DNA from: Henningerozyma blattae CBS 6284
Lineage: Eukaryota > Ascomycota > Saccharomycetes > Saccharomycetales > Saccharomycetaceae
Assembly (NCBI RefSeq): GCF_000315915.1
Contig: NC_020188.1
Span: 637,501-701,500, forward strand
DNA: 64,000 nucleotides
Reading direction: 5' to 3'
Each line of letters starts with the position of its first letter. Positions within the stretch are counted from its first letter, which is position 1. The position numbers and the translations under genes are program-made. The notes beneath the pieces are model-generated. The model was not told the origin of the DNA. It saw only the letters and a list, made by a program, of their open reading frames with translations, and did no database searches. Below, piece after piece: positions 2,109 to 58,840 of the stretch.

Positions 2109-2480
2109 GGTCTTTGATAACACTTTGAATAGCTCAATTATAGTTTAGATTATTTACAGTAGATGTGGTTGCAATGTATACGCAAGTATAAACAATATGG
2201 TTTATTGGTTATAATATATAAAATTCAAGTATAGTATGAGTGTCTATCTATTATGCATTAGCCCATACTATGTGTGTTTAATAGAATGGTGTAGGTGATT
2301 CGTATCCAGCAAGAAAGAAAATTTGTGCTAGCTTGAGGGACAGTGTGCCTGATAATGTGGGTAACTATCTCTATGCCCTTTTCCATCTCGCCATGTTATT
2401 TGTGTGAGTTTGTTTGTTTGAGTTTGTTTATTTGTTTGTTTCTGTATTATGTATGTATTTTTTTCCATTATTTTTTTCCA
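2109..2480. other. intergenic EMA19-MDJ1
   Basis: This 372-bp spacer is EMA19 promoter and MDJ1 3' flank. It has a T/TG-rich stretch around 2400-2490 and no convincing gene. I looked here for SMX2, which lies between GNA1 and MDJ1 in S. cerevisiae, and did not find it. Confidence 0.5.
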
Positions 2481-4013
2481 CTATTTTTTCTGGAATCGTT
2501 TAAGTGTACGATTCAAGAATTGTTCCAAACGGTTTAGAGCCGAGTCGGAGTTATTTGATGTAGAAGATTTTGGTTTAGCATCCGAAGGCTCTGAATTACT
2601 GCTTTTGGTATTTCCCGCGGAGCTGTCTGTGTCCAGTCTCACGTGATCTGGAGACCTCGATGCCCCAGAATCGTTGGTCACGTCAGCTAATGCCTCCCAT
2701 AAGCATCGTTCCACAGCAGTCTTTGGTGTACGTACAGGTACTCTCCATTGGACCTTCATGTCGCCACGTGATAAGCCTCCACGACCACGTGGAACACCTT
2801 GTCCTGGTACACTTACGGTTTCTCCATCACGAGTTCCTGAACGTACTCGCAGTCTTAGTTGGTTACCATCAAGTGTGGGTATAACAACGTTACCACCCAG
2901 CACAGCAGTGGTCACAGGAATCTCACGCGTTTGCCATAGTTCATTACCGTTGCGGATGGAAAATACTTTATCTTGTTTCACACGGATTCTTACCAATAAA
3001 TCACCACGAGTAACCTTTACTTGATCTCTTTGTTCTGGTGCAATGGCAATATTTGGGTATCCACCTTGACCAGCAACACGGATCACATCACCGTCTACCA
3101 ATCCTGGTGGTAATTCAACTTGCACTGTACGTTGTACTGGGCGAGGTTCAGTACCTTCCCCATCACAATTCCTACATACATCTTCACGAGCGATATTTTC
3201 ACCAGTACCACCACAACTCATACAAGTAGATGCCATTTGGAAACCGGCACGGACGTGTACAGTAGTCCCTGTCCCATGACATGAACTACATTCGGATCTG
3301 TGTGAGCCAGGTTTCATACCACTACCGGTACAAGTCTTACATTGTTCAATACTGCTGACATTCAAAGTAACATTACGAGAACCAAATACAGCATCCTTGA
3401 AGCTTAAAGTATGTATGACTTCTACATTATCACCACGGACTTCACTATAGAACCCACCAAAAGGTGATCCATTGCCACGCCCACTACTTCTGCCACCACC
3501 ACGACCTGCAGCTCCATTGGCTTTAGAAAATGCAGCTCCGAACAAATCTTCGAAGTTTATACCACCAAATCCAAACGGATTCCCACCTGCGTTAGCAAAT
3601 GGATTGGCGCCTCCTGCAAATGGATTGCCTCCGGAGAATCCACCACTGCCTCCTCCTTGACTATTATCAAAGGCAGCAGATCCAAATTGATCGTATTGCA
3701 TTTTTTTCTTCTCATCACTTAAGATTTCATAGGCGTTTGTAATATCATGGAATTTCTTGTCACTTCCCTTATCCTTATTGATATCTGGATGATATTTCTT
3801 GGCTAACTTGTAATAAGCTTTTTTAATCTCACTTGCTTTTGCATCTTTATTCAATCCTAAAACTTTGTAAGGATCCTTGAAACTATTGTATAGGATAGCA
3901 TTGGAATGGAATAATGATCTTTGATTGATTTGTGTGGTTCGAATAATATTTTTCAAAGAATCAATATTCCGAGCACCAGTAAAGACTCTTGATCGATAAG
4001 CTAATGTAAACAT
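2481..4013 (-). CDS. MDJ1: mitochondrial DnaJ/Hsp40 co-chaperone
   Basis: A 510-residue type I J-protein; yeast Mdj1 has 511. It stimulates the matrix Hsp70 Ssc1 during folding of imported proteins and helps maintain mitochondrial DNA. The order of domains is visible: a basic presequence (MFTLAYRSRVFTGARN), a J domain at about residues 47-112 with the HPD motif (KYHPDINK), a Gly/Phe-rich linker (GGSGGFSGGNPFAGG), and four zinc-binding repeats (CKTCTGSG, CSSCHGTG, CMSCGGTG, CRNCDGEG). The substrate-binding beta domains follow, then a Ser/Asn-rich tail. The ATG at 4013 starts directly with the presequence. It matches YFL016C in the same synteny block as LPD1 and GNA1. Confidence 0.96.
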   Translation of the reverse strand: MFTLAYRSRVFTGARNIDSLKNIIRTTQINQRSLFHSNAILYNSFKDPYKVLGLNKDAKASEIKKAYYKLAKKYHPDINKDKGSDKKFHDITNAYEILSDEKKKMQYDQFGSAAFDNSQGGGSGGFSGGNPFAGGANPFANAGGNPFGFGGINFEDLFGAAFSKANGAAGRGGGRSSGRGNGSPFGGFYSEVRGDNVEVIHTLSFKDAVFGSRNVTLNVSSIEQCKTCTGSGMKPGSHRSECSSCHGTGTTVHVRAGFQMASTCMSCGGTGENIAREDVCRNCDGEGTEPRPVQRTVQVELPPGLVDGDVIRVAGQGGYPNIAIAPEQRDQVKVTRGDLLVRIRVKQDKVFSIRNGNELWQTREIPVTTAVLGGNVVIPTLDGNQLRLRVRSGTRDGETVSVPGQGVPRGRGGLSRGDMKVQWRVPVRTPKTAVERCLWEALADVTNDSGASRSPDHVRLDTDSSAGNTKSSNSEPSDAKPKSSTSNNSDSALNRLEQFLNRTLKRFQKK

Positions 4014-4322
4014 GATCCAATTGTTCTTGGGTTAGAGTGATGAAGAATAAAATTAATTTAAATAAATTTAAAACTCTCCTTTAATATATATATATATATA
4101 TTTTTTTTAATCAGTTCTATTCTCTTTAACTTCTCGGTACTACTATTTATTATATAATTTTTATCATTTTTCACCGGCATTTCGGCTTCGCCTTATTGAT
4201 ATTAAGACAAATAATAATTATTTTTATATTCAAAATTCTATATTCTATATTTAAATACATACAATTTATGTATATATTAAATAGAGCTATATTTGAACTA
4301 TGTTTTACTCACATACAACAAC
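4014..4322. other. divergent promoter region MDJ1/CTF19
   Basis: This 309-bp region is shared by the divergent genes MDJ1 and CTF19. It contains an AT dinucleotide run near 4085-4102 and otherwise no recognised sites. Confidence 0.5.
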
Positions 4323-5234
4323 ATGTCAAATGATGAAAATGATCGGATATTGGAATTAGAAGAACAAAAAAGAATTCTTTTGAGAAAAAAGCAAGAATTG
4401 CTGGATCGTATCGAGAAATACAAAAATTTGAATAAAGATGATAATGATGATGATGAGGAAGATGAAGATGAATCTTGGAAGGGCTTAATATACAATAATT
4501 CTTTTCCTAAGCCTAATGATTTATCAAATGAAAATTCCAAATTGTTTAAAATTGATGGTAATTCAAATATTGAAGATGAATTATTGAGTAAACTTGATAC
4601 TCTGCCTATCCTTAATAAGGATTTACGTTTGAAGTATTTGCAAAGAGCATATCCGTTTGTAGATATAAAGATATTAGATACATCAATTAATGATTCCAAA
4701 TTACAATTTGAAATTAGTTTCAAAAATAAACATACAAATAATTCAGTCCAATTTGAAATGATATCTGAACAAAATAAAATCACTTCCTTTAAAGTAATTA
4801 ATAGTGATAATTTCTCTTCTTGTAATTTAAAAAACATATCATCTCCTAATATTTTATTAAATTTAATTGAATTGGATCGATTAGAATTTAAAAGGCACAA
4901 GTTTTTCCAACGATTATCCAATAAGATTTCTCAAAAGAATCAAAATATTAATATTGAAATTATAGAAAATAATTCATGTTTAAAATTGAATAGGTTAATC
5001 TTCAGAAATTTTCCAAATGAGAATATTAAATTAGATTTATATATCTATTGGAATATTCAATTGGATACTACGACTAATGAGATTAATACTGATTGGTTTA
5101 TTAAATTGAATAAAAATGATCAATTGTTGAAAAATAAAATTGATCTTAACGTCATATGGAGAAAACTCATAAAAGAATACGGGATTGAAGTAGGAACTGA
5201 GGAATTAATTAAAATTTGTCTGTTCCCAACTTAA
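4323..5234 (+). CDS. CTF19: kinetochore COMA subunit Ctf19 (CENP-P)
   Basis: A 303-residue protein homologous to S. cerevisiae Ctf19 (369 residues), a COMA-complex subunit of the inner kinetochore with tandem RWD domains. Recognition rests on two stretches that match my knowledge of the yeast protein: DTLPILNKDLRLKYLQ near residues 95-110 and the C-terminus LIKEYGIEVGTEELIKICLF. The N-terminus is a charged coiled coil (ILELEEQKRILLRKKQELLD) followed by an acidic Asp/Glu run, as in the family. The start is the ATG at 4323; the frame opens at 4293 but only with a TTG. In S. cerevisiae CTF19 is divergent from VTC3 on chromosome XVI. Here it sits among chromosome VI-left genes, about 15 kb from the VTC gene. 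Confidence 0.85.
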   Translation: MSNDENDRILELEEQKRILLRKKQELLDRIEKYKNLNKDDNDDDEEDEDESWKGLIYNNSFPKPNDLSNENSKLFKIDGNSNIEDELLSKLDTLPILNKDLRLKYLQRAYPFVDIKILDTSINDSKLQFEISFKNKHTNNSVQFEMISEQNKITSFKVINSDNFSSCNLKNISSPNILLNLIELDRLEFKRHKFFQRLSNKISQKNQNINIEIIENNSCLKLNRLIFRNFPNENIKLDLYIYWNIQLDTTTNEINTDWFIKLNKNDQLLKNKIDLNVIWRKLIKEYGIEVGTEELIKICLFPT

Positions 5235-5374
5235 CTTTAAAAGAAAAAATAATATGAATAACGATTGATTGATTGATTAATATGACAATTGCTTTTTTTT
5301 TCACTTATACAACAGTATATATATTTTGAATGCATAATAACTATATGACAATGAATGGAAAAGATAGAGGGTGG

Positions 5375-5869
5375 TTACCATGTAGCGTAATCATCACAGT
5401 CATCATTGCCAAACTCACCATTCGCATACCCTTCGTCATAGGCACGATCATATTCGTGTTCATGATGCTTATCGACAGCATGTTCTAAAAGTGCACCACC
5501 TATTAACCCTGCACCAACACCTAGCCACTTTCCTGATGAAGAAGATTTATTTGTGTTTGAACTCGAATTGACATATTCTACAGTTCTAGGTGCAGGTGCA
5601 GCTTGATATTGGACTGGTGCAGCTTGATATTGCATTGGTTGTTGATATTGCATAGGCTGTTGGTACGCCATTGGCTGTTGATACTGTTGTGGTGGAGGGG
5701 CTTGCGCTGGAGCACCTGGAGGTGGTCCATAGGATGAATGTGGGAATCTTGTTCCTTGTGGAGGATCCCAGGTCGATCTCTGGGTATGTAAATCCACGTA
5801 ATAGAATGTCTGATATTGTGAATCGTAAACGGCTTTCCAGCCTTGTGGTGGAATTGGTGCAGGAGGCAT
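5375..5869 (-). CDS. WWM1: WW-domain protein Wwm1
   Basis: A 164-residue protein with an N-terminal WW domain at about residues 8-38 (GWKAVYDSQYQTFYYVDLHT, then QRSTWDPP), showing both Trp residues and the Tyr pair that bind proline-rich ligands. A Pro/Gln/Tyr-rich region with repeated QQPMQYQ and QYQAAP units follows. Next come a short Gly-rich segment (WLGVGAGLIGGALLEHAV) and an acidic end (DDCDDYATW). Yeast Wwm1 (YFL010C) binds the metacaspase Mca1 and affects growth and cell death. The glycine-rich C-terminus followed by a His/Asp/Glu/Tyr region resembles other yeast WW/PQ-rich proteins. The gene is convergent with CTF19 and keeps its S. cerevisiae position upstream of CDC4. Confidence 0.88.
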   Translation of the reverse strand: MPPAPIPPQGWKAVYDSQYQTFYYVDLHTQRSTWDPPQGTRFPHSSYGPPPGAPAQAPPPQQYQQPMAYQQPMQYQQPMQYQAAPVQYQAAPAPRTVEYVNSSSNTNKSSSSGKWLGVGAGLIGGALLEHAVDKHHEHEYDRAYDEGYANGEFGNDDCDDYATW

Positions 5870-6599
5870 CTATGAGATTATACGTAAGAGTAAACTGAAG
5901 CTGTGTACGGTACTGAACTAATGGGGGTACTACGAATGTAGAAAAAAATAAAAACAAAAAACGAAGTGAAATAGAACAAAGATAATGGTCGACTTTCAAG
6001 ATAAAAAAAAGTTTAGAAAGTTTAGAAATGCAAATACAGAGGATTTTAACCAATACTTTATTTATATATAGTTCATTCGAAATCTTAAGGAGATGCAAGA
6101 AAAAAGGTTAAAAACAAAAGATAAAAAAAACCACTAATGAAAAATACTCACAAGAAGAAAGTGCAAGGGAATTTTGGTAAGATTACGAATAAATTAAAGT
6201 TCTAGTGAACCTTGGCCAATCTCAATCCAGAATAGATCAAGACAAAATATTAAAAAAAAGAGGAGGCAGTGATCATCCCAAACTAACACGCGCACACAAA
6301 CAGTATATAAATATTGTAATCCTGAGAAACCCAACTATAACAAAACCTAATCTAAATTCGCTTATTATTCAGTTGAAATGGTTATTTTTAGCCTCCGGCA
6401 TAAACGAATGTCTATGTTGTTGTTTTTTCGTAACTTCTATCGATCTCTATCACACCACTGCCTGTTTATTCGAGCCCGGAGTTATTGATTTCATAGGAAC
6501 TACACAGATCGATCTAAAAAGGAAACTTCGTTATACACACTAACATATAGAGTATAGATGCATATACGTAAATAACTTTGATAGATAAATTTACACACA

Positions 6600-6872
6600 A
6601 GATCAAGATACTCCTTGATCTCACTATAGGCTTGTTTTTCGCATGGGATTTATAAGAAAGGAGATTGTTTTCCTCTCCCTTAACTTTTCTTGTACAGAAA
6701 CTCCTGTACGGAGACTGCCAAGATATATCCGAGGTTAATAATAATCCTACACCAACATATTGTGTCATTACTAATGAAATCACATGTACAGATTATTATT
6801 ATGCTAACACCATGGCATTAGCAATAATGGCTTTTTTTCTTCCACCACTATAGTGCTGTAAAGATGGTGGAA
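6600..6872. other. cluster of four stem-loops, possible structured RNA
   Basis: Four inverted repeats lie within 273 bp: AGATCAAG/CTTGATCT (6600-6621, loop ATACTC), GGAGA/TCTCC (6660-6678), GTACAG/CTGTAC (6692-6709, loop AAACTC) and TTCCACCA/TGGTGGAA (6840-6872). An imperfect GGCATTA/TAATGGC pair followed by seven T sits near 6815-6838. No box C/D, H/ACA, SRP, RNase P or spliceosomal RNA signature was recognised, so the RNA interpretation is a guess. The strand is not determined. Confidence 0.25.
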
Positions 6873-7009
6873 ATATTTTTCTAATCCTTGAATCATGAAT
6901 AGAATACCTTCTAATTTTCTTATTGAGTCTAACATGTCATTAATACCTATAAAAAATCATACCTATTGGCTAGTCCAATTTCCTGTCGTAATCTATTTCC
7001 TATATTGGA

Positions 7010-7124
7010 AACCCTAGTAGCCCTGAAAAATGAAAATAACCCTGACAACCCTAATACTGTTTAACCCTAGAAACCCTATTGACACATAACCATGAGCCCT
7101 AATTGGTCGTGGATGTAACCCTGG
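7010..7124. promoter_or_regulatory. cluster of eight Tbf1-like ARCCCT motifs
   Basis: Eight copies of ARCCCT lie in 115 bp: at 7010, 7019, 7038, 7047, 7063, 7072, 7095 and 7117. Two of them (7047-7054 AACCCTAA and 7095-7102 AGCCCTAA) match the full Tbf1 consensus ARCCCTAA exactly. In budding yeasts Tbf1 occupies such sites mainly in snoRNA gene promoters and subtelomeres. All copies have the same orientation. This points to a dedicated promoter or nucleosome-free region, possibly for a non-coding RNA in this long spacer, or for CDC4. Confidence 0.5.
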
Positions 7125-7366
7125 ACAGCGTGGCCGGCAAACGCGGAAATCAACGGACGTATCCAAAGTAGCCACTAAGAGCAATTCTTCCAATGAGTAA
7201 AGGCGATGAATAATAATGACTGATGAATGTTGAACTAAGAAAGGATATTCTCCACAAGCTAAACTATCCACAAGCTAATAACCAAAGTGGAGGGATTCAC
7301 TTCCTAAATTGTAATAGTGTTGGTGACTCGTAAACTAAAAACTACCCCGTACGTTCAACGTGAGAT

Positions 7367-7388
7367 CTGTTCTTGAAACAGTTTTTTT
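7367..7388 (+). terminator. hairpin followed by T7
   Basis: The sequence CTGTT-CTTGA-AACAG is followed directly by seven T. This could end a Pol III or other short transcript from the preceding region, but no promoter boxes were recognised, so it may be chance. Confidence 0.2.
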
Positions 7389-7938
7389 AAAATTATTACA
7401 GGTAACAACAGCTTTAACGTTAACGTTTCCATTCATCAACTCGTCAAATCCACTAATAGTGCTTTTTTTTAAAAAAAGTTGGAATATATTGAGATCCAAT
7501 ACATTTAGGCAAGGGAATATTTTAAACTAGTGGTACTTGTTACACAAAGTTTGGTTCATTTCAAATTGTGCTTGAGGTTATTTTTTTGTTCTGTTTAGAA
7601 GAGAAATAAAAAAAGTAATTAATAAAATTATAGAATTCAACTATAAACATCATTTCAGCATCTTTCGTTACTGGTTAGCTTTCTACATCACTCCTGTTTT
7701 GAAGCATATATATATATTACCAAAGGTCTCCTACTTTTTTTTTTCAAAGAAAAAACAAACAATAATAATAACAATTATCAAAAAAAAAAATAAAAATAAA
7801 AAAAAGGAAAATAAAAAAATTAAGCATATTACTTGGAGTCACACATCTCTATTTGATCTTCTGATATCGTTTGCATTTCATCTTTTCTTTTGTCTTTTTC
7901 TTTTTATTCTGTATCGTATTCTTTCTTTTACAATAAGA

Positions 7939-10527
7939 ATGTCGACAAACCTGAACCCATCATTACAAGGATCACATACTCTTCCTTCATCTACTGATTC
8001 TAGCACTAAAGTGAATTTGAATTCGAATTTCTCCATGTTCAATACTTCGATACCACCTAAATATCCATTAAAATCAATCCCGATCCCATATCAGTATCAA
8101 ATACATGATAATACCTCTACTTTGATTAATTTAAACAATTCAAGTTCCTATATTCCTACGAATTCTAAAAAGAGAAGGAACAGTGATAAATTTCAAATAT
8201 TATCCAAAGCAACTATCGAAAATGATTTGATAAATAATAGTACCAATAACACTAGCACGATAACATCAACAAATACATCAGCCTCCACTATGAACAATAA
8301 CTCTCATCATGGTAATGTTATGGTGAATTATCCAACAGGGTTAACGACAAATACAAATTCTACTTCAAATAGTATAATGAGTTCCACGGGGGAAAATAAT
8401 AAAAAGATTAGAATTTCGAAATCAAATAGTAATAATAATTTGAAATACTTGAATATGAATAAATCACCAACTACTGCAACTACAAATACTAGCATCAATA
8501 ATACTACGATCTCGAATAATACAAATATATCATCGACTGTACAGGAGACAACTACTCCTACAGAATCGACAACTACTTCGAATATTAACGCTACTACCAT
8601 ACTTAATAATGATGTAGTATTGGATGATGCTCTGCCGTTATCTCCAGTCGCATCACCAGGTTTAGATCAATCTATGGATTCATTATTACCTGTATCAACT
8701 AATTCAATTCTTACCGCTAATAATAATACTATAACTAATAACAATAACACTGCTAATAGTATACATACAACAGAGATTATGTCAAATTATACAAACGATA
8801 TTCTTAATAATATTAATAATCAATTACCGGAACAATGTATAAAGAATTTATTATTCAAATTGATCTCCAGTTTAAATAGATCTGAAATATCTGATCTATC
8901 GACTTTTTTGAAAGATAATTTACAAAGAGATTTCATAACTTCCTTACCAGTTGAAGTGGCATTAAAGATTTTAATTAATCTCTCATTCATAGATATCATT
9001 AATTGTTTACAAACTTGTAAAAATTGGAATCGGTTAATTATAAATACCCCATATCTTTGGAAACATCTTTTAATTAATGAAAGTTTTGTCTCTCCAGATA
9101 ACTTTAACAATTATTCTAAAAAAATATCATTAGAGTATCCACAATTTAACTCAGAAGAATTATGTTATAGATATGATTTCTTAAAGAAATTAAAAATTTT
9201 GAAAAATTGGTATAACCCATTTTATTTACCAAAGAGAACAACTTTATTAGGTCATATGACAAGCGTTGTCACTTGTTTACAATTCGAAGATAACTATATT
9301 ATTACTGGTGCTGATGATAGAATGATTAGAGTTTATGATTCAAAATTGAAAAAATTTCTCTTGGAATTAGCTGGGCATGATGGCGGTGTTTGGGCTTTAA
9401 AATATGATGAAGATGGTATCCTTGTAAGTGGTTCTACAGATCGTACAGTTAGAGTTTGGGATATAAAACGTGGTTGTTGTACACATATTTTTAAAGGACA
9501 CACATCTACTGTGCGTTGTTTAGATATTGTAAAATATAAAAATACAAAATATATCATTACAGGTTCAAGAGATACTACGTTACATGTTTGGAAATTACCC
9601 TATTCTGTAGAAGAATATGATGATATTAAACTTAAAACTATTAATGAGCCAATCCTATATCAAACTACTCAAGATAATCCATTTTTCGTGGGGATATTAA
9701 GAGGTCATTTAGCTTCTGTTAGAACCGTTTCTGGTCATGGGAATATTGTTGTAAGTGGATCTTATGATAATAATCTTATCGTATGGGATATTATTCAAAT
9801 GAAATGTTTATATATCTTAACTGGGCATACAGATCGTATATATTCCACAATTTATGATCATAAGAGATCAAGGTGTATATCTGCAAGTATGGACTCCACA
9901 ATAAGAGTTTGGGATTTAAAAGATATTTGGAATAATGGTAAATGTGCAAGAGTAATGAACTCCATACCATGTATGAAAATTTCAGGTTCTTTGTATACTT
10001 TACAAGGACATACTGCTCTAGTAGGGTTATTAAGATTATCAGATAAATATCTTGTAAGTGCAGCTGCTGATGGATCATTAAGGGGATGGGATTCAGATGA
10101 TTATTCAAGGAAATTTGCCTACCATCATAATAATTTAAGTGCAATTACAACTTTCTATATGAGTGATAACTTGCTAGTAAGTGGTTCTGAAGGTCAGTTC
10201 AATGTCTACAATTTAAGATCAGGTAAATTAGTCCATGCAAACCTTTTATGTGATGCTGATCAAATTTGGTCTGTTAATTTTAAAGGTAATATGTTGGTGG
10301 CAGCAGTGGAGAAAGATGGCCAAAGCTATGTTGAATTGTTAGATTTCGAATCTTTTGCTTCATCAAATGATTCTAATGAGAAAGATAATCATGAAACAGA
10401 AAATGAAGGAACAGGAGAACAAGATGAAGAGGATGGTGACGAAGAGGTGCATGATACTAATTCCTATACAAATTCTCAACGAGAAGGCTTGGCAACTAAT
10501 GCAACAACCGACTCACCTGCATCATGA
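7939..10527 (+). CDS. CDC4: F-box/WD40 subunit of SCF ubiquitin ligase
   Basis: An 862-residue homolog of yeast Cdc4 (779 residues), the substrate receptor of SCF-Cdc4. It binds phosphodegrons of Sic1, Far1 and others and is essential for the G1/S transition. The first ~320 residues are low-complexity Asn/Thr/Ser. The F-box follows at about residues 333-380 (SLPVEVALKILINLSF, then CKNWNRLI and LWKHLL). A C-terminal WD40 propeller spans about 437-800, with repeats such as LLGHMTSVVTCLQF, LAGHDGGVWALKYD, FKGHTSTVRCLDI, LRGHLASVRTVSGH, LTGHTDRIYSTIYD and LQGHTALVGLLRL. An acidic tail ends the protein. The ATG at 7939 (MSTNLNPS) is chosen; the 80 open codons before it start with TTG and look like UTR. 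SMC1, the next gene in S. cerevisiae, is not here. Confidence 0.95.
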   Translation: MSTNLNPSLQGSHTLPSSTDSSTKVNLNSNFSMFNTSIPPKYPLKSIPIPYQYQIHDNTSTLINLNNSSSYIPTNSKKRRNSDKFQILSKATIENDLINNSTNNTSTITSTNTSASTMNNNSHHGNVMVNYPTGLTTNTNSTSNSIMSSTGENNKKIRISKSNSNNNLKYLNMNKSPTTATTNTSINNTTISNNTNISSTVQETTTPTESTTTSNINATTILNNDVVLDDALPLSPVASPGLDQSMDSLLPVSTNSILTANNNTITNNNNTANSIHTTEIMSNYTNDILNNINNQLPEQCIKNLLFKLISSLNRSEISDLSTFLKDNLQRDFITSLPVEVALKILINLSFIDIINCLQTCKNWNRLIINTPYLWKHLLINESFVSPDNFNNYSKKISLEYPQFNSEELCYRYDFLKKLKILKNWYNPFYLPKRTTLLGHMTSVVTCLQFEDNYIITGADDRMIRVYDSKLKKFLLELAGHDGGVWALKYDEDGILVSGSTDRTVRVWDIKRGCCTHIFKGHTSTVRCLDIVKYKNTKYIITGSRDTTLHVWKLPYSVEEYDDIKLKTINEPILYQTTQDNPFFVGILRGHLASVRTVSGHGNIVVSGSYDNNLIVWDIIQMKCLYILTGHTDRIYSTIYDHKRSRCISASMDSTIRVWDLKDIWNNGKCARVMNSIPCMKISGSLYTLQGHTALVGLLRLSDKYLVSAAADGSLRGWDSDDYSRKFAYHHNNLSAITTFYMSDNLLVSGSEGQFNVYNLRSGKLVHANLLCDADQIWSVNFKGNMLVAAVEKDGQSYVELLDFESFASSNDSNEKDNHETENEGTGEQDEEDGDEEVHDTNSYTNSQREGLATNATTDSPAS

Positions 10528-26924: not shown

Positions 26925-26998
26925 CGACCCCAGAGAGGATTGAACTCTCGATCTTGCGATTAACAGTCGCACGCCTTAACCAGCTTGGCCATGGAGTC
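26925..26998 (-). tRNA. tRNA-Asn (GTT anticodon)
   Basis: A 74-nt gene that reads, on the minus strand, GACTCCATGGCC..., then the D-arm AAGCTGGTTAAGGCG (A box), the anticodon loop CTGTTAA with anticodon GTT (26962-26964), and the T-arm GAGAGTTCAATCCTCTC (B box). It ends in GGGGTCG, which pairs with the 5' GACTCC end with the usual G-T pair. No intron is present. T-runs just downstream (26903-26920 on the plus strand as A-runs) serve as the Pol III terminator. It closely resembles yeast tRNA-Asn. Ty-like remains lie on its 5' side. Confidence 0.98.
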
Positions 26999-27260: not shown

Positions 27261-27857
27261 TTAGGTAATGATTCTTCTTTGTACTGAAATTGAAGAGAGT
27301 AGTTGAATTCCCTTTTTATCTTCTAATAATTTTAAATCATTATTTGTAAATTCCGAGCCTCTATCTGTAATAAATTCTTGTACTTTTCGTCCAAATTGTG
27401 TTTCAATAAATCTTATATTATTATCAATTTGAGCAACAATTTCATCATCAATTTTGTAAAGATGAGTTGTGCATATAACATATCTTGAAACACTATCAAC
27501 CATTAGCATCATAAACCTAGGTGTTCCTGATGTAACTTTGTTAACTGGACCAAACAAATTAATAGTCCATGACGAACCTGGTGTCTTTAGCATTGTATAA
27601 TTATTCATTGAATTTGTATAATGAAAATGTTTAGTCATTTTTCCAGCTACACAAATTTCACACTTATTCAAATCAACCATCCATTTTGGAAAATGGACCA
27701 TCTCATTTAATTGAATTTCAAGTTTTGTTGATGGCATATCGTAATAAAATTTTACTCTAATACCATTCTTGTTAATGAATTTATAATACATCTCTCTTTC
27801 ATCAGTCAATGAAGTGAGATTAGCATCTTCTTCATCAAGTATATCCTCAAAAACTTT
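27261..27857 (-). pseudogene. integrase fragment of a Ty1/copia element
   Basis: An open stretch of about 190 codons matches the front half of a Ty1-like integrase: the second half of the zinc finger (KCEICVAGK), then a core with LFGPVNKV, LMVDSVSRYV and ITDRGSEFTN. The second core Asp (TDRGSE) is intact. The residue that is the first catalytic Asp in active copies (family pattern TDIFGPV) is Asn here (TINLFGPV). The remaining integrase, RT and RNase H are absent. It has no own ATG in a sensible place and is part of a decayed element. Confidence 0.8.
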
Positions 27858-28182
27858 TAGGTTTTATTTTTAGGTTCTAATACAATTTCCCTATTAGAAC
27901 CATTAAATTTTATAGTTTTGTTATGAGAAGCATCCTTTTCTGTGATCTCATTTTCTTGTAAACTACTTAATAATTCTTAGTAAAACTTTTTCCTATCTTC
28001 AAAGAATTTAATAGTATTTTCTATTTCTTTGCTTGCTTTAACAGCCTCTTCAATATTTAACTCTTTCTCATTGAAGATTTTTGATTGCTTTTTACAATTC
28101 ATTTAAATCCTATCATCTATCATCTTTAAATTTCTTTTGACAGACTCTATTGTCTCTAAATCAGAACTAGGCAGCGCTATCA

Positions 28183-28436
28183 TACTAGAGTTGAAGAGAG
28201 TCTGAAATTATTAAATAATGAATTTTGATGTAATTTTGGACTACTTCTTTTACATACTCTACTCTATAAACATCTATATTCATTTACAAAATATGCTCTT
28301 TATATAGTAAGTTAAAACAAGCTCTATTCATAAATGTTCTTTAACCTTAAAGAACATTTCCCTTTTTTAACAAATACCTTAATTAAAAATGTCTTTTTAC
28401 GAAATAAAGAGAAAATAACTATATTATTTTCCAACA
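28183..28436 (-). repeat. LTR of the degenerate Ty element (5' LTR)
   Basis: Read on the minus strand it begins TGTTGGAAAATAATATAG, the usual Ty LTR start, contains a TATA box (ACTATATAAAGAGC) and ends about 254 bp later directly before the primer-binding-like site. The 3' terminal dinucleotide is TA rather than CA, consistent with decay. Confidence 0.65.
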
Positions 28437-40624: not shown

Positions 40625-41984
<1,360 letters not shown>

Positions 41985-49397: not shown

Positions 49398-51161
49398 ATG
49401 GCAAGACCAATTGACATTAACAAATTACTAGCTACCAAAAGCAAAAAGGAAAATATTACAGGAAATGAAGTTATAAGGAAGCCTATTTCTTCACGGAACT
49501 CTACAATAATATCTACCTCTTCAAATCAAGCTAGTTATCCTGGAGATTATGAGAACCTACAATTCAAACCGAAGAAAAGGATCGCCATTGATTCTGGGGA
49601 GATGCCATATCAAAATAAGGATTCAAATGTTTCAAATCATATACCTAAGAAAAGGAAATTTCAATTTGAATGGGAAGAGGAGGAAGATTCATCTATAAAT
49701 TATAAACCTATAGTGAGCGTAGAATATAACAGGCTGTTTAAAAATATAAATTCATCAGAACTTGATACCCTTGAGAGAGCTTATATTGGTAAGCATTGGT
49801 CTGAAAAATCATGGGAAGAGATGACAGATCGTGATTGGAGAATCTTTCGTGAAGATTTTAATATAAGTACAAAGGGAAGCAACGCTGAGCAGCCACTTAG
49901 ATATTGGAATGAAAAAGGATTGATGCCTGACATTGTTTTAGATATAATAAAGAAAGAGCTTAAATTTGAGGAACCGTCAGCCATCCAACGTGTTGCAATC
50001 CCGAATATATCCTCCAAGAAGACTCCAAAAAGAGATTTTCTTGGAATTGCATCCACTGGTTCTGGTAAAACATTGGCCTTTGTACTTCCTATTATTTGTT
50101 CCTTAATAAAGTCTTCTCCAAGAATACCTTTATTAAAAATTAAAAATGGTCCTAAGGCCTTAATATTAGCTCCAACAAGAGAATTAGCTCAGCAGTGTCA
50201 GCAAGAAGCTTCTAACATTTTAAAATATATATTTGAAAGAGATCCCTCTCTAAACTTTAATTCAGTCTCTGTAATAGGTGGGCATTCAATCCAAGAACAA
50301 CTTCAAGATTTGAGAAATGGAGCTGATATATTGATTGCCACCCCAGGCCGTCTAATTGATGTTTTGGAATCCCATATGACGGTGTTTAGCGATCTCGACT
50401 TTCTTGTTCTAGATGAGGCTGACCGAATGGTTGATTTAGGATTTGAAGACCAATTACTAACCATTCTTACACATATACAAAAAGCATCAACAATCTTAAA
50501 TATTCAAACTATTATGTTTACAGCAACGATGTCACCCAAGATTGAAAAAATTGCGAATCGGTATTTAAAAAAACCTGTATATGCTACAATTGGTAATGCG
50601 ACTTCAACAGAGCCTCAAATTGAACAAATTGTAGATTATGCAGCAAATGAAGATGTGAAATTTAAAAAACTATTAGAGTATGTTTCCAATTTTCCATCAC
50701 CGATTATTATTTTTATTAATTATAAACGAACTGCTGATTGGTTAGTAGATAAATTTTACCAGGAAACAACTTTTAGAGTGACAACCATACATGGTTCGAA
50801 ATCTCAGGAGCAAAGAGAACAAGCTTTGAATAATTTGCGCAGTGGAAAGGCTCATATCTTGATTGCTACGAATGTAGCTGCTAGGGGTATTGATATTCCA
50901 AATGTATCTTTGGTCGTTAATTATCAGATGCCTCTCAAATTTGAAGACTATATACATAGAATTGGTAGAACTGGTCGTGCATCTCAAAAAGGTACTGCTG
51001 TTACTCTCTTGGGTAATGAAGAAGATAGTCAGATTATTGAGGAGCTGTATAGGTATATGAAAGAGCATGACGTAACAAAATCAAATAACTTTCCTAATTC
51101 TATCTTAAAATTATATGATCTTGTAAATCACACAGACATGAGGGACAATATTATATATTAA
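49398..51161 (+). CDS. PRP28: DEAD-box RNA helicase Prp28
   Basis: A 587-residue spliceosomal helicase, one residue shorter than yeast Prp28 (588, YDR243C). It drives exchange of U1 for U6 snRNA at the 5' splice site. The N-terminus MARPIDINKLLA equals the yeast start. Motifs: Q motif with PSAIQRVAIPN, ASTGSGKT, PTRELAQQ, TPGRLIDVLE, LDEADRMVDLGFEDQ, FTATMSP, ATNVAARGIDIP and HRIGRTGRA. The ATG at 49398 replaces a non-ATG upstream opening at 49308. RAD1-PRP28 adjacency joins chromosome XVI and IV neighbours; PRP28 belongs with the TRS23/VHS1 block. Confidence 0.95.
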   Translation: MARPIDINKLLATKSKKENITGNEVIRKPISSRNSTIISTSSNQASYPGDYENLQFKPKKRIAIDSGEMPYQNKDSNVSNHIPKKRKFQFEWEEEEDSSINYKPIVSVEYNRLFKNINSSELDTLERAYIGKHWSEKSWEEMTDRDWRIFREDFNISTKGSNAEQPLRYWNEKGLMPDIVLDIIKKELKFEEPSAIQRVAIPNISSKKTPKRDFLGIASTGSGKTLAFVLPIICSLIKSSPRIPLLKIKNGPKALILAPTRELAQQCQQEASNILKYIFERDPSLNFNSVSVIGGHSIQEQLQDLRNGADILIATPGRLIDVLESHMTVFSDLDFLVLDEADRMVDLGFEDQLLTILTHIQKASTILNIQTIMFTATMSPKIEKIANRYLKKPVYATIGNATSTEPQIEQIVDYAANEDVKFKKLLEYVSNFPSPIIIFINYKRTADWLVDKFYQETTFRVTTIHGSKSQEQREQALNNLRSGKAHILIATNVAARGIDIPNVSLVVNYQMPLKFEDYIHRIGRTGRASQKGTAVTLLGNEEDSQIIEELYRYMKEHDVTKSNNFPNSILKLYDLVNHTDMRDNIIY

Positions 51162-51329
51162 TCTATAAAAGTAGGTAAACAAGAATTTTTAGAGGTTCTA
51201 TTTTTTTATAGGATATTTATCTTGCATCGTTGTAGCTGTGAATATAAAATGGTTTATGTATAAATGGTTTGAATGAATATGGTTATCTTATTGTTAAGTC
51301 CGACGGGTTATAAATTGAATATAGAGAAA

Positions 51330-52250
51330 TTAAGACTTAAACTCTGAAGACCTCCTAAACTTAGCCCTTACTTTTTCTAGCACAATATCATCAAATATAG
51401 GTCCAAAGGAGGACTTTGAATCTTGGAGTTCTAGTCTTCTCTTTTTCAAAACAGTATCATTATCCTGCTCTTTATTTATTACGTTAATCATTGCATTTAG
51501 TGCCGTCTTTGCTTGCTCTTCGCGCTCTCTCTTTTGAGCCGCAGTGTCAGGATCATCATTAGCCCATTTAACTAATAAGCCTGTACCTTCATTTCTTTCA
51601 TCCCATTCTTTATCGGACGGAATCAGTAATGTTTGATTGGACATTACTTCCTTGGCAAACTCTGCATTGCATTGGTTTTTAAATTTTATGAATGCACAAT
51701 TTTTATTCTCTAGATACCTTAATCTATCTAAAAGTCCCAACCTAGAAAACATATATCTTAGACGGCTTTCAATTTGAGACGGTTTTAACTCCTTGTTATT
51801 TATTGCACCAGTTATTCCACCAATATAGAGGGTTCTATTTTTTTTTCTGAATGATCCAATACCACTCATGTCATCTCGATAATCGGCAAATTTCTCTCTT
51901 CCAAAACAATCCAATATATCAGACTTCATTAGCAATGCTATAGAATCAGAGTCTTCTGGAATATGATGTTTATATTGGCATTTTTTCCCCAAAGAACACA
52001 TTCCTTTTGCAAAATAAAGACAAAAAAATACATTACTACTCTTATCACCTAAGGTGATCCCAGAATGGCTTGAAGGTTCTAGACGATACTTGTTCACAAA
52101 CCTTCGGTTACCTGTATTACCTTGTGACCATTTATTGTACCAAACATTAAAGGTAAGGCCTGTTTGTGGCGGAGTCGAGGACGGGAGGTCTTTTTCATTT
52201 ACCTGAATTATTGCAGACTTATCTTTCCAACTTTTAGTAGCTTTACTCAT
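51330..52250 (-). CDS. CWC2: spliceosome factor Cwc2
   Basis: A 306-residue homolog of yeast Cwc2 (339, YDL209C), a component of the NineTeen complex that contacts U6 snRNA and the catalytic core. Domains: a Torus/CCCH zinc finger (FCLYFAKGMCSLGKKCQYKH, with three Cys and one His) and an RRM from about residue 140 (TLYIGGI, CAFIKFKNQCNAEFAKE). Further matches are LTFNVWYNKWSQG, DCFGREKFADYRDDMSGIGS and TGLLVKWANDDPD. The C-terminal tail is shorter than in yeast. The ATG at 52250 is clear. It is convergent with PRP28 and separated by 168 bp. Confidence 0.94.
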   Translation of the reverse strand: MSKATKSWKDKSAIIQVNEKDLPSSTPPQTGLTFNVWYNKWSQGNTGNRRFVNKYRLEPSSHSGITLGDKSSNVFFCLYFAKGMCSLGKKCQYKHHIPEDSDSIALLMKSDILDCFGREKFADYRDDMSGIGSFRKKNRTLYIGGITGAINNKELKPSQIESRLRYMFSRLGLLDRLRYLENKNCAFIKFKNQCNAEFAKEVMSNQTLLIPSDKEWDERNEGTGLLVKWANDDPDTAAQKREREEQAKTALNAMINVINKEQDNDTVLKKRRLELQDSKSSFGPIFDDIVLEKVRAKFRRSSEFKS

Positions 52251-52563
52251 ATTCTATTAATTTTCATTAACCATTTAGGTAATATAAGTTGAAACTCAAT
52301 TATATTTATTTACTAGTTTTTTCAAATATTGTTGGTACAAGAAATGATTTCGCTCATCGACTTAAGCATACAAAAGGTAAAGCTTAGTCTCAAGTGTGAA
52401 ATGTATTTCTCCGAAACCCAAAAGTATCATTTTCAACGAATTTCAAAACAAACGTATAATGCGACTTTAATTTTATTTTTATTTAAAAATTAGTTAGCTA
52501 AATAAATAAAATATTTACTAGCACATTACTTTCAATATTTAACTAGTTTTAGAATTGGTTTAT
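52251..52563. other. CWC2 promoter / 3' flank of the Gag-like gene
   Basis: 313 bp, AT-rich. A TGTTGGTACAAG at 52328 looks like an LTR start, but nothing else supports one. No other feature was seen. Confidence 0.45.
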
Positions 52564-53901
52564 TTAAATAAATTCATGGTGTTTTCTGTCTTTTGAGCTA
52601 TAACACAAGCTTTGCTCAAGATTTAATGGGTACATTCCACATATTGGGCAAATACGATTTTCCATAAACAGTTTAACAATTTGAGATCTAGTAAAATTTC
52701 CTGATATTGAGACATGGAATGATTTCTTATTTGCCTTCAAAGCTTTGATATAACGATCAACAGTTTTTGTAGAATATATTCTTTTTGCTACCTCAGGATA
52801 AACTTCCTTATTTTCAGGGCAAAGTCCGCGCTCTTCTTGTACCATACAGAGTTGTGAATTATTTATCTCAGTATTTTCTTTCGGCTCATCACTAACTTTT
52901 AAAGACTTAGCTAGAGCAGAGTTATCAAGTGCATTCTCTTTTGACAAATTTGAAGTGGCAGCATCTTTCATGTCATCTTTATAGTTATCCGAATTTGAGT
53001 TAAATTCCCTGAACAGACTTAATAATGATTTTATATTCTCTAGAGGTTCTATATTTTCTTTAAGGGATGTTTGTTTGATGGTTTTCATTAAATGTAACTT
53101 GAATTTTTCTGAGGATACTGGTATTGATCCATCGTGTGTTTTAATTGTCAATAAAAATCCAAAGAGACATACGGGAATTAAAAGTTTTGAGTATTTTTCA
53201 TATGCCTTATCTAAATTTTGCAAAAATACTTCTCCTTTCTTTTGCATTAAATCTTCATCTCCAAAATAGTTTAGTAAAATAAACGTATCATCAAATTCTT
53301 TCTTCAATGAATTATTTTGTGCTTCCTCTAGCTCGTGCGTTTTTTGTCTAATTTCATCATCCTTAGTTTTATAGATATCGCTAATAGTTTTCAAAATGTC
53401 TGTACAATTTAAATCGTACAGAGATTCTCTTACTTGGACATCTTCTAACGAATTTCTAATTCCAGTTGTAAATAAATTTTTGAATATCATACATATTGCT
53501 ACTTCATTTGCATTGTTATAATCTACTTTATTCTCATTGAATGCGATTGTCAAAAAAGGATTAGTTTCACAGATAATTGCAACACTTTTTTTCCAGATTA
53601 AATAGTTTGAACCATCAGCTTTCAATTTTGGTAATGCATCTAAGTTATATTTCAAATAGGTATCGTTTGAACATTTGTAAGCATATTGCAAGCTTTCGCA
53701 AGAATATTTACTTGTTGTATCAACTTTTTTTAGAATATCATTTTTATCCCCCTTGTTAATCTCAGATTTCTGATCTTGAGAATTTAGTTCTTCTAGTCTC
53801 GTTTGTTCAGCTAATGGAATTGAAATTTTAGCATCATTAGTTGTAAAAATTGTGTCTGAAAATTTTTGAAGTATTAAATTTTGATTTTCTCTTTCAATCA
53901 T
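52564..53901 (-). CDS. Ty1/copia Gag-like protein with C-terminal zinc-finger-like motif (copy A)
   Basis: A 445-residue predicted protein, the downstream member of a tandem pair. Near residues 90-105 it has LPKLKADGSNYLIWKKS, which matches the copia-type Gag signature (DGSNY-x2-WK), followed by a helical region like that of the Gag capsid. A charged linker of about 60 residues follows. The end carries CPICG, then a further Cys and a His pair (LCYSSKDRKHH), a possible zinc finger that could replace the nucleocapsid knuckle. No protease, integrase or reverse transcriptase lies near it. The frame also opens 12 codons earlier with TTG; the ATG at 53901 is chosen. Length, a single long frame and a diverged but alignable neighbour suggest a maintained gene. 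Its function is unknown. Confidence 0.65.
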   Translation of the reverse strand: MIERENQNLILQKFSDTIFTTNDAKISIPLAEQTRLEELNSQDQKSEINKGDKNDILKKVDTTSKYSCESLQYAYKCSNDTYLKYNLDALPKLKADGSNYLIWKKSVAIICETNPFLTIAFNENKVDYNNANEVAICMIFKNLFTTGIRNSLEDVQVRESLYDLNCTDILKTISDIYKTKDDEIRQKTHELEEAQNNSLKKEFDDTFILLNYFGDEDLMQKKGEVFLQNLDKAYEKYSKLLIPVCLFGFLLTIKTHDGSIPVSSEKFKLHLMKTIKQTSLKENIEPLENIKSLLSLFREFNSNSDNYKDDMKDAATSNLSKENALDNSALAKSLKVSDEPKENTEINNSQLCMVQEERGLCPENKEVYPEVAKRIYSTKTVDRYIKALKANKKSFHVSISGNFTRSQIVKLFMENRICPICGMYPLNLEQSLCYSSKDRKHHEFI

Positions 53902-54951
53902 CTCTCGATTGGAAGGTACTGTATATGTAATACACAATGGTTTGACTGGTTCAAAATTTAATCAAGCTGTTCCTGAAATAGCACGTAAAAGGTCGTTAAA
54001 AATTATCTCGTCCAACTTATAATGATTTAAGTATAATTCCTAACTGGGTACCTTATTTCGATTTTTGTGTACGGGAATTGCCACAAAGTTATTCATTTTT
54101 GTGTTAAATAACTTTATTGGTTATACAAATATTTAGTCTAATTATTTCTATAAATATCTTAAATAAATACTATACATCTACTTTTCTCTATATGCCATAT
54201 GGTTCTGCCTGGTATAGGCTTTGTCACTATTTAATATTTTGATAATCCTTAACTATGGAGCATTATTGCCGAACTGTTTCAACTGAAGAAAGATATATAT
54301 CTATAGATTTGTTTGTTCCTTTAATTAGGTAGTTATCCTTATTTAAGAGTACTGTATCAAAATTTCACCAATATTTTACGAATCAAAGTTTGAGCCTCTA
54401 TGAATAATTTTTCAGATAGATGTGGTTCTACTATTATATTTAATCTACTCTACTGTGATTGACCTTTTAGTCTCTTTTTGTTTTACTACTCACCATTTCT
54501 CAGGGTATTTTTTTCTCTACATAGCTCATATTTCAAAGTTAAATAAAATTGTCAAAGTCTAAGGTGGCTTTGTAGGCCAATGGCGAATGGCAAAATCTAA
54601 ATATGACACAAAATGGAAAACCACTAGTGAATGCTTCTGTTTATAGTTTTTAATTTCATTATGACATCTAATGTTTTAATTTTTTTATATTTACCAAAAT
54701 ATTAATTATTCAATTAGATAGTATTGGTAAGTAAAAAGTGTAACTACAAGCTCTTTAAAATCCAAAGTTAAATGATACCTGACCCCGTCCAGGATTTCTA
54801 TTTTCAAAAATGCTACCCATTGTCATAAGGTTTTCTTAGTGGGTAGTATTACGGTCATAAAAAATAAATTATACTATTCAATTTATTGAAATTTGGTTAC
54901 ATTAATATAAAAATTAATTGTATTTGTTACTGTATATATACTACTTAACTG
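53902..54951. other. spacer between the Gag-like genes
   Basis: 1.05 kb without a credible gene. No LTR was recognised. A stem-loop ATGCTACCCATT/AGTGGGTAGTAT at 54810-54849, just after the end of the upstream Gag-like gene, could mark its 3' end. Confidence 0.5.
54810..54849 (-). terminator. stem-loop after Gag-like copy B
   Basis: Arms of 12 bp pair at 10 positions plus two G-T pairs, loop 16 nt, about 100-140 bp beyond the stop codon at 54952. A role in 3' end formation is only a suggestion. Confidence 0.25.
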
Positions 54952-56226
54952 TTAATAAAAAGCTGAACCAAGATAATTATTGCCACTACCCTTTAATTTT
55001 AAATTAGTTGACTTTTTAAGCAATTTCTTTCCTTGTTCGATATCTAAGCCTTGGAGAAGATTATTTTGTTTTGATAAAAAAGGATTTTGCTGAGTTTCTA
55101 ATTCATTTTTCTCATTAATACTATATATTGCTCTAACTGTGAATTTAGATTTTCCCTGTTCAATAATGAGTATTTTTTGTTCAGTATTGGTGGTGACTTC
55201 TTTTGGTCGTACAAATGTTGTTGATCTTGTTTGCTGATTGTTGGTTAAGATATTTTTTTGATTGATATGCTTCTTTTTCAAATTTATAGCTTTATACTTA
55301 ATTTCTGGTGAGCCAGTATGCTGAATCATTTTATCGTTAGCATAATTGTTCTTATCTTCATTAAATTTTTTAAATAACTCTAAGTATACTTTAATTCTTT
55401 GAAATAAATCTTCAGAAACTGTTGTAGGGGAAGAATCTTTTATCGAGAATTCGTTAATTTTCTTTACTAGTTGTTTTTTAAAGGATTTAGAGGAATTTAG
55501 AAGTCTCCCATCATCACCTCTTAATGACAAGATTGGACCAAAAATATTAGAAGTTAGCCAAATATCAAGATATATTGTATCAATTTCATTAAATGTGTTG
55601 ATAAATCTTCGTCCTATTGCTTGTGTTGTAACATTATTGAAATCCCCTACCAACTTTTGAGAAATAAAAGAGGAAGCAAAAAAATTATCAAAAGTATCAA
55701 TTGAGATTACTTTTTCTAAAAATATAAACATCTTGTCAATAGTTTCTAATAATTCTTTACAATTCCAAATTTCTGAAATTGGAGTCAATTTTAGACTCTT
55801 AAAAGTTGATAGGTTTTCAAATTCGTTAAAGTCTTCAAATGATTCTTTAACCCCAAAAATAAATAATTTTTTTAAAACAGTTAAGAGACCCATTTCTTTT
55901 TCATTTGTTTGGTCTACATCTTGCTCATTAAAAATTATGGGCAAGAAGGGATTTATCTCAATTAATGCATTTAGATTTTTCTTCCAATCGTTATAATTTG
56001 AACCATCATTTTTTAGTTTAGGTAATTTTTCTAATTCTTCCTGTAGATAAGTTTGTCTTGCACAAATATGGCCATACTGTAAGCCTTTCAAAGAATGATT
56101 GCTATGTTTATTAAATTTCTTCAATATATTGAATTCTTCAAATTCAACTGGTATTGAGATTAACTTCGAATCATTTTGTCCAACCGAATCTTCAGGAATG
56201 GATATTATTGAATTTTCAAGAGACAT
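54952..56226 (-). CDS. Ty1/copia Gag-like protein (copy B)
   Basis: A 424-residue predicted protein, upstream member of the pair. It aligns with copy A through SLKGLQYGHICARQTYLQ, LEKLPKLKNDGSNYNDWKKN (Gag signature at about 68-84) and the helices INPFLPIIFNE and LLTVLKKLFIFGVKESFEDF. Identity by eye is about one quarter to one third. The C-terminal ~100 residues differ: copy B has a Lys/Asn/Gln-rich tail without the Cys/His motif of copy A. No pol sequence follows it. The ATG at 56226 is the first in frame; TGTTGG occurs on the same strand at 56330, about 100 bp before it, which could be a leftover LTR start but is too close to contain a full LTR. Its function is unknown; a capsid-like assembly is the natural guess. 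Confidence 0.65.
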   Translation of the reverse strand: MSLENSIISIPEDSVGQNDSKLISIPVEFEEFNILKKFNKHSNHSLKGLQYGHICARQTYLQEELEKLPKLKNDGSNYNDWKKNLNALIEINPFLPIIFNEQDVDQTNEKEMGLLTVLKKLFIFGVKESFEDFNEFENLSTFKSLKLTPISEIWNCKELLETIDKMFIFLEKVISIDTFDNFFASSFISQKLVGDFNNVTTQAIGRRFINTFNEIDTIYLDIWLTSNIFGPILSLRGDDGRLLNSSKSFKKQLVKKINEFSIKDSSPTTVSEDLFQRIKVYLELFKKFNEDKNNYANDKMIQHTGSPEIKYKAINLKKKHINQKNILTNNQQTRSTTFVRPKEVTTNTEQKILIIEQGKSKFTVRAIYSINEKNELETQQNPFLSKQNNLLQGLDIEQGKKLLKKSTNLKLKGSGNNYLGSAFY

Positions 56227-57148
56227 ATTTTTTTGTTTAATTGAATATTTTAGAAATTAATCTTTTCTGCAAAAGAGTATAATTGCTATTATTTGCCTTC
56301 TATTGAACTAAAAACTGTAAATATCCAACAACGACTAATACATGAATTATTCCATTATGAAATCATTTTATAGTTGTTTTTACTGGTATTCTTTTTAAAT
56401 ATCACTTCCATTCTTGTCTTTATTATGATGTTCACATATTTTTAAGGAAATTTTCCGAATTACAATATCTAAATATTAGGGCGGTTATTCTTGTAAAATA
56501 TTAGTGTTACACGCTTTGAGGGAAAGGGACGATAAATACATAATACATGATTACACTTGCCAGAATTTGTGAATTTGTTTAGAGTGCTGAAAAGAAAGTA
56601 AATAAACTAAAGTGAATTAAGTAGCAGAGGAGGTATTGAGCAAATGAAAATGTAGAGTCTTGAAATAAGGATTATATTCAAAGGCAGATATTATTCAGTT
56701 AACCAATAACAAAACTAAAAAATAAATAAATAAGAAAGAAAAAGATAATTATTTAAAAGTTTAGAGATGAGACTGTAATAAGGTAATTATAGCTCAGGTG
56801 TTAGTAGAAATATTGTGCCGAGAAACAAGGTGCAATAATTAGAAGTCCGTGAAGTATAAAATTAGAGAAAGTTTTATTTTATTAGGAGATACAAGATTAT
56901 TTTATAGAATTAGATGAAATTATATACTACAGTATTTGAATATATATGTGCATTTGTATGTGGTATCACTCTGCACATATTAAAACATTCTTTCTATGGA
57001 GAGTGTATCATTGGTAACATGAAACTGTAGTTTACATTTTCTTAAAGAAAGAATTTTAATTAAGATAAATGAATTGAAGAAAATAATACTATTTTAGTTA
57101 GCTTTTCAGATAAGTTATACAATCTAAATACCGAAATATATTGAGAAA
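56227..57148. other. intergenic Gag-like copy B - PDC
   Basis: 922 bp: 5' flank of Gag-like copy B and 3' flank of the PDC gene. It is AT-rich with no recognised gene. A TTTTCCGAATTACAA near 56450 resembles the core of CDEIII, but no other centromere part is nearby. Confidence 0.45.
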
Positions 57149-58840
57149 CTACTGCTTAGCATTGATTGAGGCGGTTAACTCTGCTTGAGAAATTAAATTA
57201 GATGGTGCATCCATAGTTGGTAGCATGACTTCAATCATTCTGATTTTAGAATTCTGATTAAATTCCGGATTTTGAGTTAAAATATTCCATTCCCCAGTGG
57301 TTGCTACTCTCACTGCTTGGTAATCCTTAGCACCAAAAGTTGATAGCAATTCTAAGTTATTCCATGGTTGAATTTCATTATATTGCGCTGTTGGTCCATG
57401 GATTAATCGTTCGATAGTATAACCATCATTATTTAAAACAAATAAATATGGTTTTAGATTCCAATTGACCATGGTAGAGATTTCTTGAACAGTCAATTGT
57501 AAAGAACCATCACCAATGAATAAAACTACTCTCTTCTTTGGATCTATTTCTTCAGCAGCAAAAGCAGCACCAAGTACACAACCACCTGTGAAACCAATTG
57601 AGCCCCATAATACTTGAGAAATACCATATGTGTTCTTTGGAAAATAAGTTTGGTTAATACCAAAAGCGGAAGTACCTGTCTCAGTTAAAACAATGTCACC
57701 TTCTTGTAAGAAATTGCCCAATTGGTTCCATAACCATTCTTGTCTCAACGGAGTTTCTGGAGAAGTCTTTGGGTTTGCTAGGATTGGAGCTGGGACAGCT
57801 ACTGGTTTATAATTCTTGACCACTTCGCCAATCTTTGTAATTAATTTACTTAAGACAAATTTCATTTGAATACCTTCATAAACAGCATTTTTGATCTTAG
57901 TATGGTCAGAATGGAATTCAATAACATTTTTTGTCTCATAATTGTATGAAAATGAACCTGTGTTAAAATCAGATAATAAAGCACCAATAGACAAAATCAA
58001 GTCTGCAGATTCAACAGCTTTCTTTACTTCTGGTCTAGTTAAAGTGCCAACATAGACACCACCAAATCTTGGGTGTTGTTCATTAATTGAACCCTTACCC
58101 ATTGGTGTAACAAAGGATGGAAATTGAGTAATATCAATTAATTTTTCAGTTTCAGCTTTGACATCATGTCTTGAAGCACAAGCATCAGCAATAATAATTG
58201 GATTTTTTGCTTGTTTAACCATTTCCAGGATAGTTTGAATCACTTCGGACTCAGAATCAGCGTCATTTGGTCTTAAAGATAAATCAATTGGAGTTTGTAG
58301 CAAAGATACTGGAACCATTGCGTTAACTAGGTTAACTGGTAAACCCAAATAAACAGGTCTTTGCATAACGTAGGCAGTTTTAATGCATCTATCAATTTCA
58401 GCTGGAGCAGTAGTAACATCTTTGATCATTACAGCAGTTTCCGAAATTTCAGAAGACATTCTATAAAAAGCATTAAAATCACCATCACCTAACGTATGAT
58501 GTAACAATAATTTTTTAGCTTGAGCTTCTAAAGATGGTACACCGACAACATGCAAGACACCTACATGTTCAGCGTAAGAACCAGCAATACCATTTAAAGC
58601 AGATAATTCACCGACACCAAAAGTAGTAATCATACAGGACATACCTTTAATTCTTGCATAACCGTCGGCAGCATAAGCAGCATTTAATTCATTAGCATTA
58701 CCAACCCATCTCATGCCTGGGATTTCATATATTTTATCCAATAATGGTAAATTGAAATCACCTGGTAAACCAAATATGGTTTGAATTTTTATTTGGTTTA
58801 ATCTTTCAAAAAGGTATCTACCTAAAGTAACTTGAGACAT
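57149..58840 (-). CDS. PDC1: pyruvate decarboxylase
   Basis: A 563-residue ThDP-dependent enzyme, exactly the usual length of yeast Pdc1/5/6. It converts pyruvate to acetaldehyde and CO2 in alcoholic fermentation in the cytosol. Key residues are visible: the cofactor Glu in VGNANELNAAYAADGYA (Glu51), the active-site HH pair in LLLHHTLGDGDF, and the ThDP motif GDGSLQLTVQEIS ending at NNDGYTIE. Codon use is only moderately biased (many TTA, AAA and some ATA), weaker than expected for the main glycolytic isozyme, which suggests a secondary PDC5/PDC6-like copy. Synteny to S. cerevisiae PDC loci is not seen, so the number in the symbol is uncertain. Confidence 0.9.
   Translation of the reverse strand: MSQVTLGRYLFERLNQIKIQTIFGLPGDFNLPLLDKIYEIPGMRWVGNANELNAAYAADGYARIKGMSCMITTFGVGELSALNGIAGSYAEHVGVLHVVGVPSLEAQAKKLLLHHTLGDGDFNAFYRMSSEISETAVMIKDVTTAPAEIDRCIKTAYVMQRPVYLGLPVNLVNAMVPVSLLQTPIDLSLRPNDADSESEVIQTILEMVKQAKNPIIIADACASRHDVKAETEKLIDITQFPSFVTPMGKGSINEQHPRFGGVYVGTLTRPEVKKAVESADLILSIGALLSDFNTGSFSYNYETKNVIEFHSDHTKIKNAVYEGIQMKFVLSKLITKIGEVVKNYKPVAVPAPILANPKTSPETPLRQEWLWNQLGNFLQEGDIVLTETGTSAFGINQTYFPKNTYGISQVLWGSIGFTGGCVLGAAFAAEEIDPKKRVVLFIGDGSLQLTVQEISTMVNWNLKPYLFVLNNDGYTIERLIHGPTAQYNEIQPWNNLELLSTFGAKDYQAVRVATTGEWNILTQNPEFNQNSKIRMIEVMLPTMDAPSNLISQAELTASINAKQ

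Follow-up and report, generated by a model that had tools for sequence, protein, structure and literature searches.

Two neighbouring genes, here called A and B, lie on the minus strand of a 64,000-nucleotide stretch (the window) of contig NC_020188.1 of Henningerozyma blattae CBS 6284, a member of the Saccharomycetaceae also named Tetrapisispora blattae. Both are very probably of Ty1/copia-type Gag origin, as judged from a predicted fold and from profile-level homology with the Gag of an element in this genome, and with modest confidence we favour the explanation that they are a Gag-derived pair kept by the host. The original prediction had described two same-strand, single-frame genes of 445 and 424 codons that share a DGSNY and WK signature at one third identity or less. 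Both frames indeed run from ATG to stop, 99 of 310 aligned residues are identical (32%; E-value 4e-38 in BLASTP), and DGSNYxxWKK is present in both proteins. In searches of the whole genome (10 contigs, 14.04 Mb), A and B each retrieved only themselves and their partner.

Relationship of A and B to a copia element Gag

Retroelement loci fetched from the same genome include L028, L029, L038, L049, L050 and L051. Among 345 open reading frames (ORFs) of at least 60 amino acids (aa) from 13 fetched loci, the top match for both A (2.5e-5) and B (1.1e-5) was TBLA_0F03510 on contig C6, a minus-strand ORF of 272 aa in L028, here called C. A profile of A and B was then compared with 1589 sequences, comprising the ORFs of 16 loci and of the window minus A and B as well as 1000 shuffles of C. 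C ranked first (2e-7) and a Gag piece of L049 second (8.4e-4), with the best shuffle at 0.02. The reverse search from C recovered B at 8e-7 and A at 1.1e-4 (best shuffle 0.019), and hhalign aligned A/B with C at a probability of 94.9 across 204 columns. C is about 20-21% identical to A and B and is collinear with A over A residues 81-308; a whole-genome search with C reached B (0.006) and A (0.027) weakly.

C is linked to polymerase sequences in two loci. In L049 (contig C9), downstream of C-type Gag remnants at 3897-4624, the same strand carries matches to the L028 frames for protease (5092-5582), pre-integrase (5702-5779) and integrase (6142-6225). This copy is also rearranged, because a reverse-transcriptase (RT) end (3185-3442) precedes gag and a second protease match sits on the opposite strand. 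In L028 the gag is inverted beside pol and broken after codon 272. Three of the four L028 pol frames matched Pfam, with Pol_BBD and RVT_2 above the cut-off and gag_pre-integrs below it; the integrase frame was unmatched. Given this pol linkage, C is a copia-element Gag, to which A and B are distantly related.

Two further observations concern these loci. L028 (about 2300-8112), with its gag directly beside the protease-to-RT part and an open RT frame of 887 codons, reflects either rearrangement of the element or an error in the assembly. In two diverged copies of the C-type element (L028 2450-2452, minus strand; L049 4882-4884, plus strand), a TAA closes the Gag frame at an equivalent position, and beyond it similar sequence runs on in the same frame towards the protease, a possible case of stop-codon read-through from gag to pol.

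Database searches were largely silent. A and B matched no Gag family in Pfam and nothing of weight in the Protein Data Bank (PDB) by sequence; weak Pfam or PDB matches (TFIIF_beta 0.13, lipoprotein 0.088, hnRNP 0.76) are taken as chance. The Pfam check that had been proposed for the pair is thus uninformative, since C, although linked to pol, matches no Pfam family either. Likewise, Pfam Retrotran_gag_2 matched nothing in the whole genome, but also nothing in any control genome. In searches of 5.8 billion database proteins, A and B matched only themselves, and a profile (A5) containing A retrieved only B and C. Because neither the B search nor this profile recovered A, absence of relatives elsewhere is not established. 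Codon usage and third-position GC content of A and B are host-like, but those of a Ty pol are equally so and hence do not discriminate.

In a structural comparison of the A model, copia-type capsids were the top three matches, the solved structure of Drt2 among them, and the confident domain of the model resembles copia-type capsid domains. Identity to the Drosophila Copia Gag capsid (8s41; available part of PMC11835246) is about 14% over the aligned stretch. Foldseek gave no match at E 0.001 against PDB and BFVD. A single-sequence model of B was discarded (pLDDT 34).

The missing Pfam family, PDB sequence match of weight and significant Foldseek match would all suit an unrelated host family that merely resembles Gag, its DGSNYxxWK likeness and helical fold arising by chance. 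We consider this very improbable, since the profile searches connect the pair and C in both directions with better scores than any shuffle and copia-type capsids take the first three places among the structural matches.

Table 1. Features of the gene pair, with positions in the window.
Feature	Position	Strand	Description
Gene A	52564..53901	(-)	Gag-like ORF, ATG to stop, 445 codons
Gene B	54952..56226	(-)	Gag-like ORF, ATG to stop, 424 codons
A-B spacer	53902..54951	(.)	No Ty or long terminal repeat (LTR) match found; no repeat of at least 25 nt common to A and B flanks
A aa 79-186	53344..53667	(-)	Predicted helical domain, DGSNY at aa 96; matches copia-type capsid domains
A aa 239-312	52966..53187	(-)	Possible second capsid domain; conserved in B and C, low model confidence
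B aa 57-176	55699..56058	(-)	Counterpart, by alignment, of the A capsid-like domain
A aa 418-433	52603..52650	(-)	CX2CX11C motif; the related Gags of L028 and L049 show this spacing in their tails

Surroundings and C-terminal tails

On one side the pair is flanked by a Torus/RRM gene at 51330-52250 (Pfam), presumably CWC2, and on the other by a pyruvate decarboxylase-like gene at 57149-58840. The pair had been predicted to lack protease, integrase and RT nearby. When positions 51000-58000 were compared with retroelement-locus frames of at least 100 aa, matches at E 0.001 or better were confined to the Gag family itself, one weaker RT match falling in the tail of B. No protease, integrase, RT or LTRs of an autonomous copia element were recognised near A and B at E 0.001, and repeats of at least 25 nt around A/B, L028, L049 and L051 gave no convincing LTR pair, only short chance-like pairs.

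Complete Gag-like frames without pol could also mark a mobile element that is non-autonomous and made of gag only, with the enzymes of other copia elements moving either the whole pair or the genes singly. This is hardly probable: the 4.9 kb region has no further DNA copy in the genome at E 0.001 (in a search that skips simple repeats), and no flanking direct repeats of at least 25 nt were found beyond the short chance-like pairs.

Decayed Ty pieces elsewhere in the window had been described as full of stops. With 17 Ty frames as queries, such pieces were found in the window only at 27300-28201 (minus strand), 24 kb from the pair. They are decayed, being truncated and broken, but with 0-1 stops per matched stretch the stops had been overstated. 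The segment corresponds to the beginning of an L029-type element, cut short, with 87% identity across 121 aa of integrase; it lies about 300 bases from a tRNA-Asn gene (26925-26998), the only tRNA found. Some 2.1 kb past the right window end (C4:703585-704127) there is a TYA-type gag interrupted by two stops. At the thresholds applied, neither this gag nor the Ty segment resembled A or B.

The A tail carries CX2CX11C, unlike the CCHC knuckle of Copia Gag, and B has no such motif (no CxxC and only two cysteines). Just before the Gag stop, the tails of the L028 and L049 Gags repeat the cysteine spacing of A. As alignments, however, these tails match the A tail no better than shuffles do (635 and 510 of 5000). 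The decayed L050 Gag tail has no CxxC, and a whole-genome search with the A tail recovered nothing beyond the tail itself and a single weak match (E 0.066). Because Copia Gag carries a zinc-finger nucleocapsid part after two capsid domains (available part of PMC11835246), A looks like a complete Gag and B like one that lacks the nucleocapsid end.

Selection and possible host retention of the pair

Selection was analysed on a 244-codon core of the A-B alignment. Differing codons were used at 41 of 87 identical residues, where 42.6 are expected under independent codon use; silent sites are therefore saturated. A and B differ at codon positions 1, 2 and 3 by 0.443, 0.332 and 0.594, compared with 0.71, 0.68 and 0.67 under random pairing. 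The proportions of nonsynonymous and silent differences (pN and pS) are 0.401 and 0.692, a ratio of 0.58 (bootstrap 0.48-0.72), with Jukes-Cantor values of 0.57 and 1.92, respectively. Neutral divergence was simulated at 8 levels with 200 runs per level, and in none of the runs did both ORFs stay open. At the level of sequence, purifying selection is thus shown to have held the proteins at some time since the A-B split.

According to the available part of PMC3507789, automatic frameshift correction inserted 398 nt and deleted 48 over 14.1 Mb of the T. blattae assembly. Single frame breaks are uncertain as a result; the correction cannot have produced two frames of more than 400 codons. An NADH:flavin oxidoreductase (Oxidored_FMN) gene split into three ORFs at 40700-41984 (plus strand) is either a pseudogene or the product of assembly frame errors.

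This leads to the question whether the selection acted on host genes. Tandem order and mutual sole close kinship suggest that A and B split by local duplication, in which case it did. The prediction that the pair had been kept by selection is plausible, with saturated silent sites, the pN/pS ratio of 0.58 and open frames behind it, the selection itself being seen between A and B.

The alternative is that A and B are relics of an insertion, or of two by related elements, of which nothing but gag is left; on this view the frames have not yet decayed, the selection dates from mobile life, and there is no host function. Several points weigh against host retention and for this alternative. Above all, the selection may predate insertion if two elements landed side by side while still mobile, which is the main gap, and the A-B divergence cannot be dated to after insertion. 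The genome also holds other decayed relatives of the family, including those of C at C9:731080-731623, C6:165129-165557 and C6:821047-821391. In addition, the B tail (aa 326-379), compared pairwise with the L038 RT frame, scored above all shuffles (0 of 1000 and 0 of 300), with E 3e-5 for one pair. Were this match genuine, B would contain a fragment of pol, and the match slightly lowers the odds of a relic-free reading.

The B tail match is nevertheless weak in wider searches (0.034 among the 345 ORFs; E 0.005 in the 51000-58000 scan), and six other RT frames did not score above 300 shuffles. A rough RT profile with some partial rows did not rank B, L038 alone giving 0.071 and L029 nothing. 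We lean towards chance for this similarity. The relic explanation further has to accommodate two fully open frames where polymerase and LTRs are not clearly recognisable, and two neighbours that must jointly escape decay. Decayed Gag-family relatives elsewhere in the genome carry 1 to 6 stops per matched stretch, and no tRNA gene, the usual Ty target, was found within 25 kb of the pair. We consider relics unlikely, though a serious contender. Beside one decayed C-type gag, L050 5807-9998 (plus strand) holds frames that resemble a Ty3/gypsy-type element (CCHC-like and RT-like strings by eye).

Under host retention, a Gag gene of an old Ty1/copia lineage would have been captured once and then duplicated in tandem; polymerase and LTRs would have been lost and the pair retained. 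A would be a near-complete Gag with a cysteine tail that may bind RNA, and B a capsid without such a tail. Interference would be the most economical role: by analogy, the proteins could enter the shells of incoming copia elements during assembly and disable them, although this is doubtful. A separate copia element, L029 1807-7315 (plus strand; a 401-codon frame, then an unbroken 1475-codon pol frame), is possibly live and a possible target.

Comparison with known capsid-derived proteins

Spoiling of the shells of relatives by a capsid protein without pol is reported for Ty1 p22 and Drt2 (PMC10951436 and PMC12530519, in their available parts). Like the presumed capsid proteins A and B, the p22/p18 restriction factor encoded by Ty1 itself is a capsid protein of copia type that stands apart from pol, and it can take part in Gag assembly (same part of PMC12530519), but p22 is produced inside a live element, whereas A and B are separate genes. 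Drt2 of S. cerevisiae, a domesticated Ty1' Gag, is likewise a Gag-derived ORF retained without pol in a budding yeast. As far as the available text of PMC10951436 goes, it is present in 50 of 73 S. cerevisiae assemblies, consists of the capsid C-terminal domain alone, and has been shown to restrict the subfamily it stems from, which is named and still includes active elements. A and B comprise most of a Gag, form a diverged tandem pair and lack a known target. The C/L049 element shares with A its collinearity and the cysteine spacing at the Gag end, but unlike A and B it has pol beside it, with gag and pol in order in L049 and the gag inverted in L028, and C is broken.

As A and B span more of Gag than p22 and Drt2, which consist of the C-terminal domain, they might build particles and perhaps package RNA. 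That A, with its nucleocapsid-like tail, and the tail-less B co-assemble in divided roles as host particles, paired restriction factors or both, an older and near-full-length counterpart of Drt2, is an improbable elaboration. A literature search found no report on A or B by title or abstract start, nor in the available parts of PMC3507789 and PMC10085805, the latter on domesticated transposases.

A and B add a new and apparently ancient instance to a known type of event, and are a concrete candidate in a sequenced yeast. If host retention is true, the pair, much more diverged than Drt2, would show that taming of copia capsids has happened repeatedly in yeasts and that they can be retained for long.
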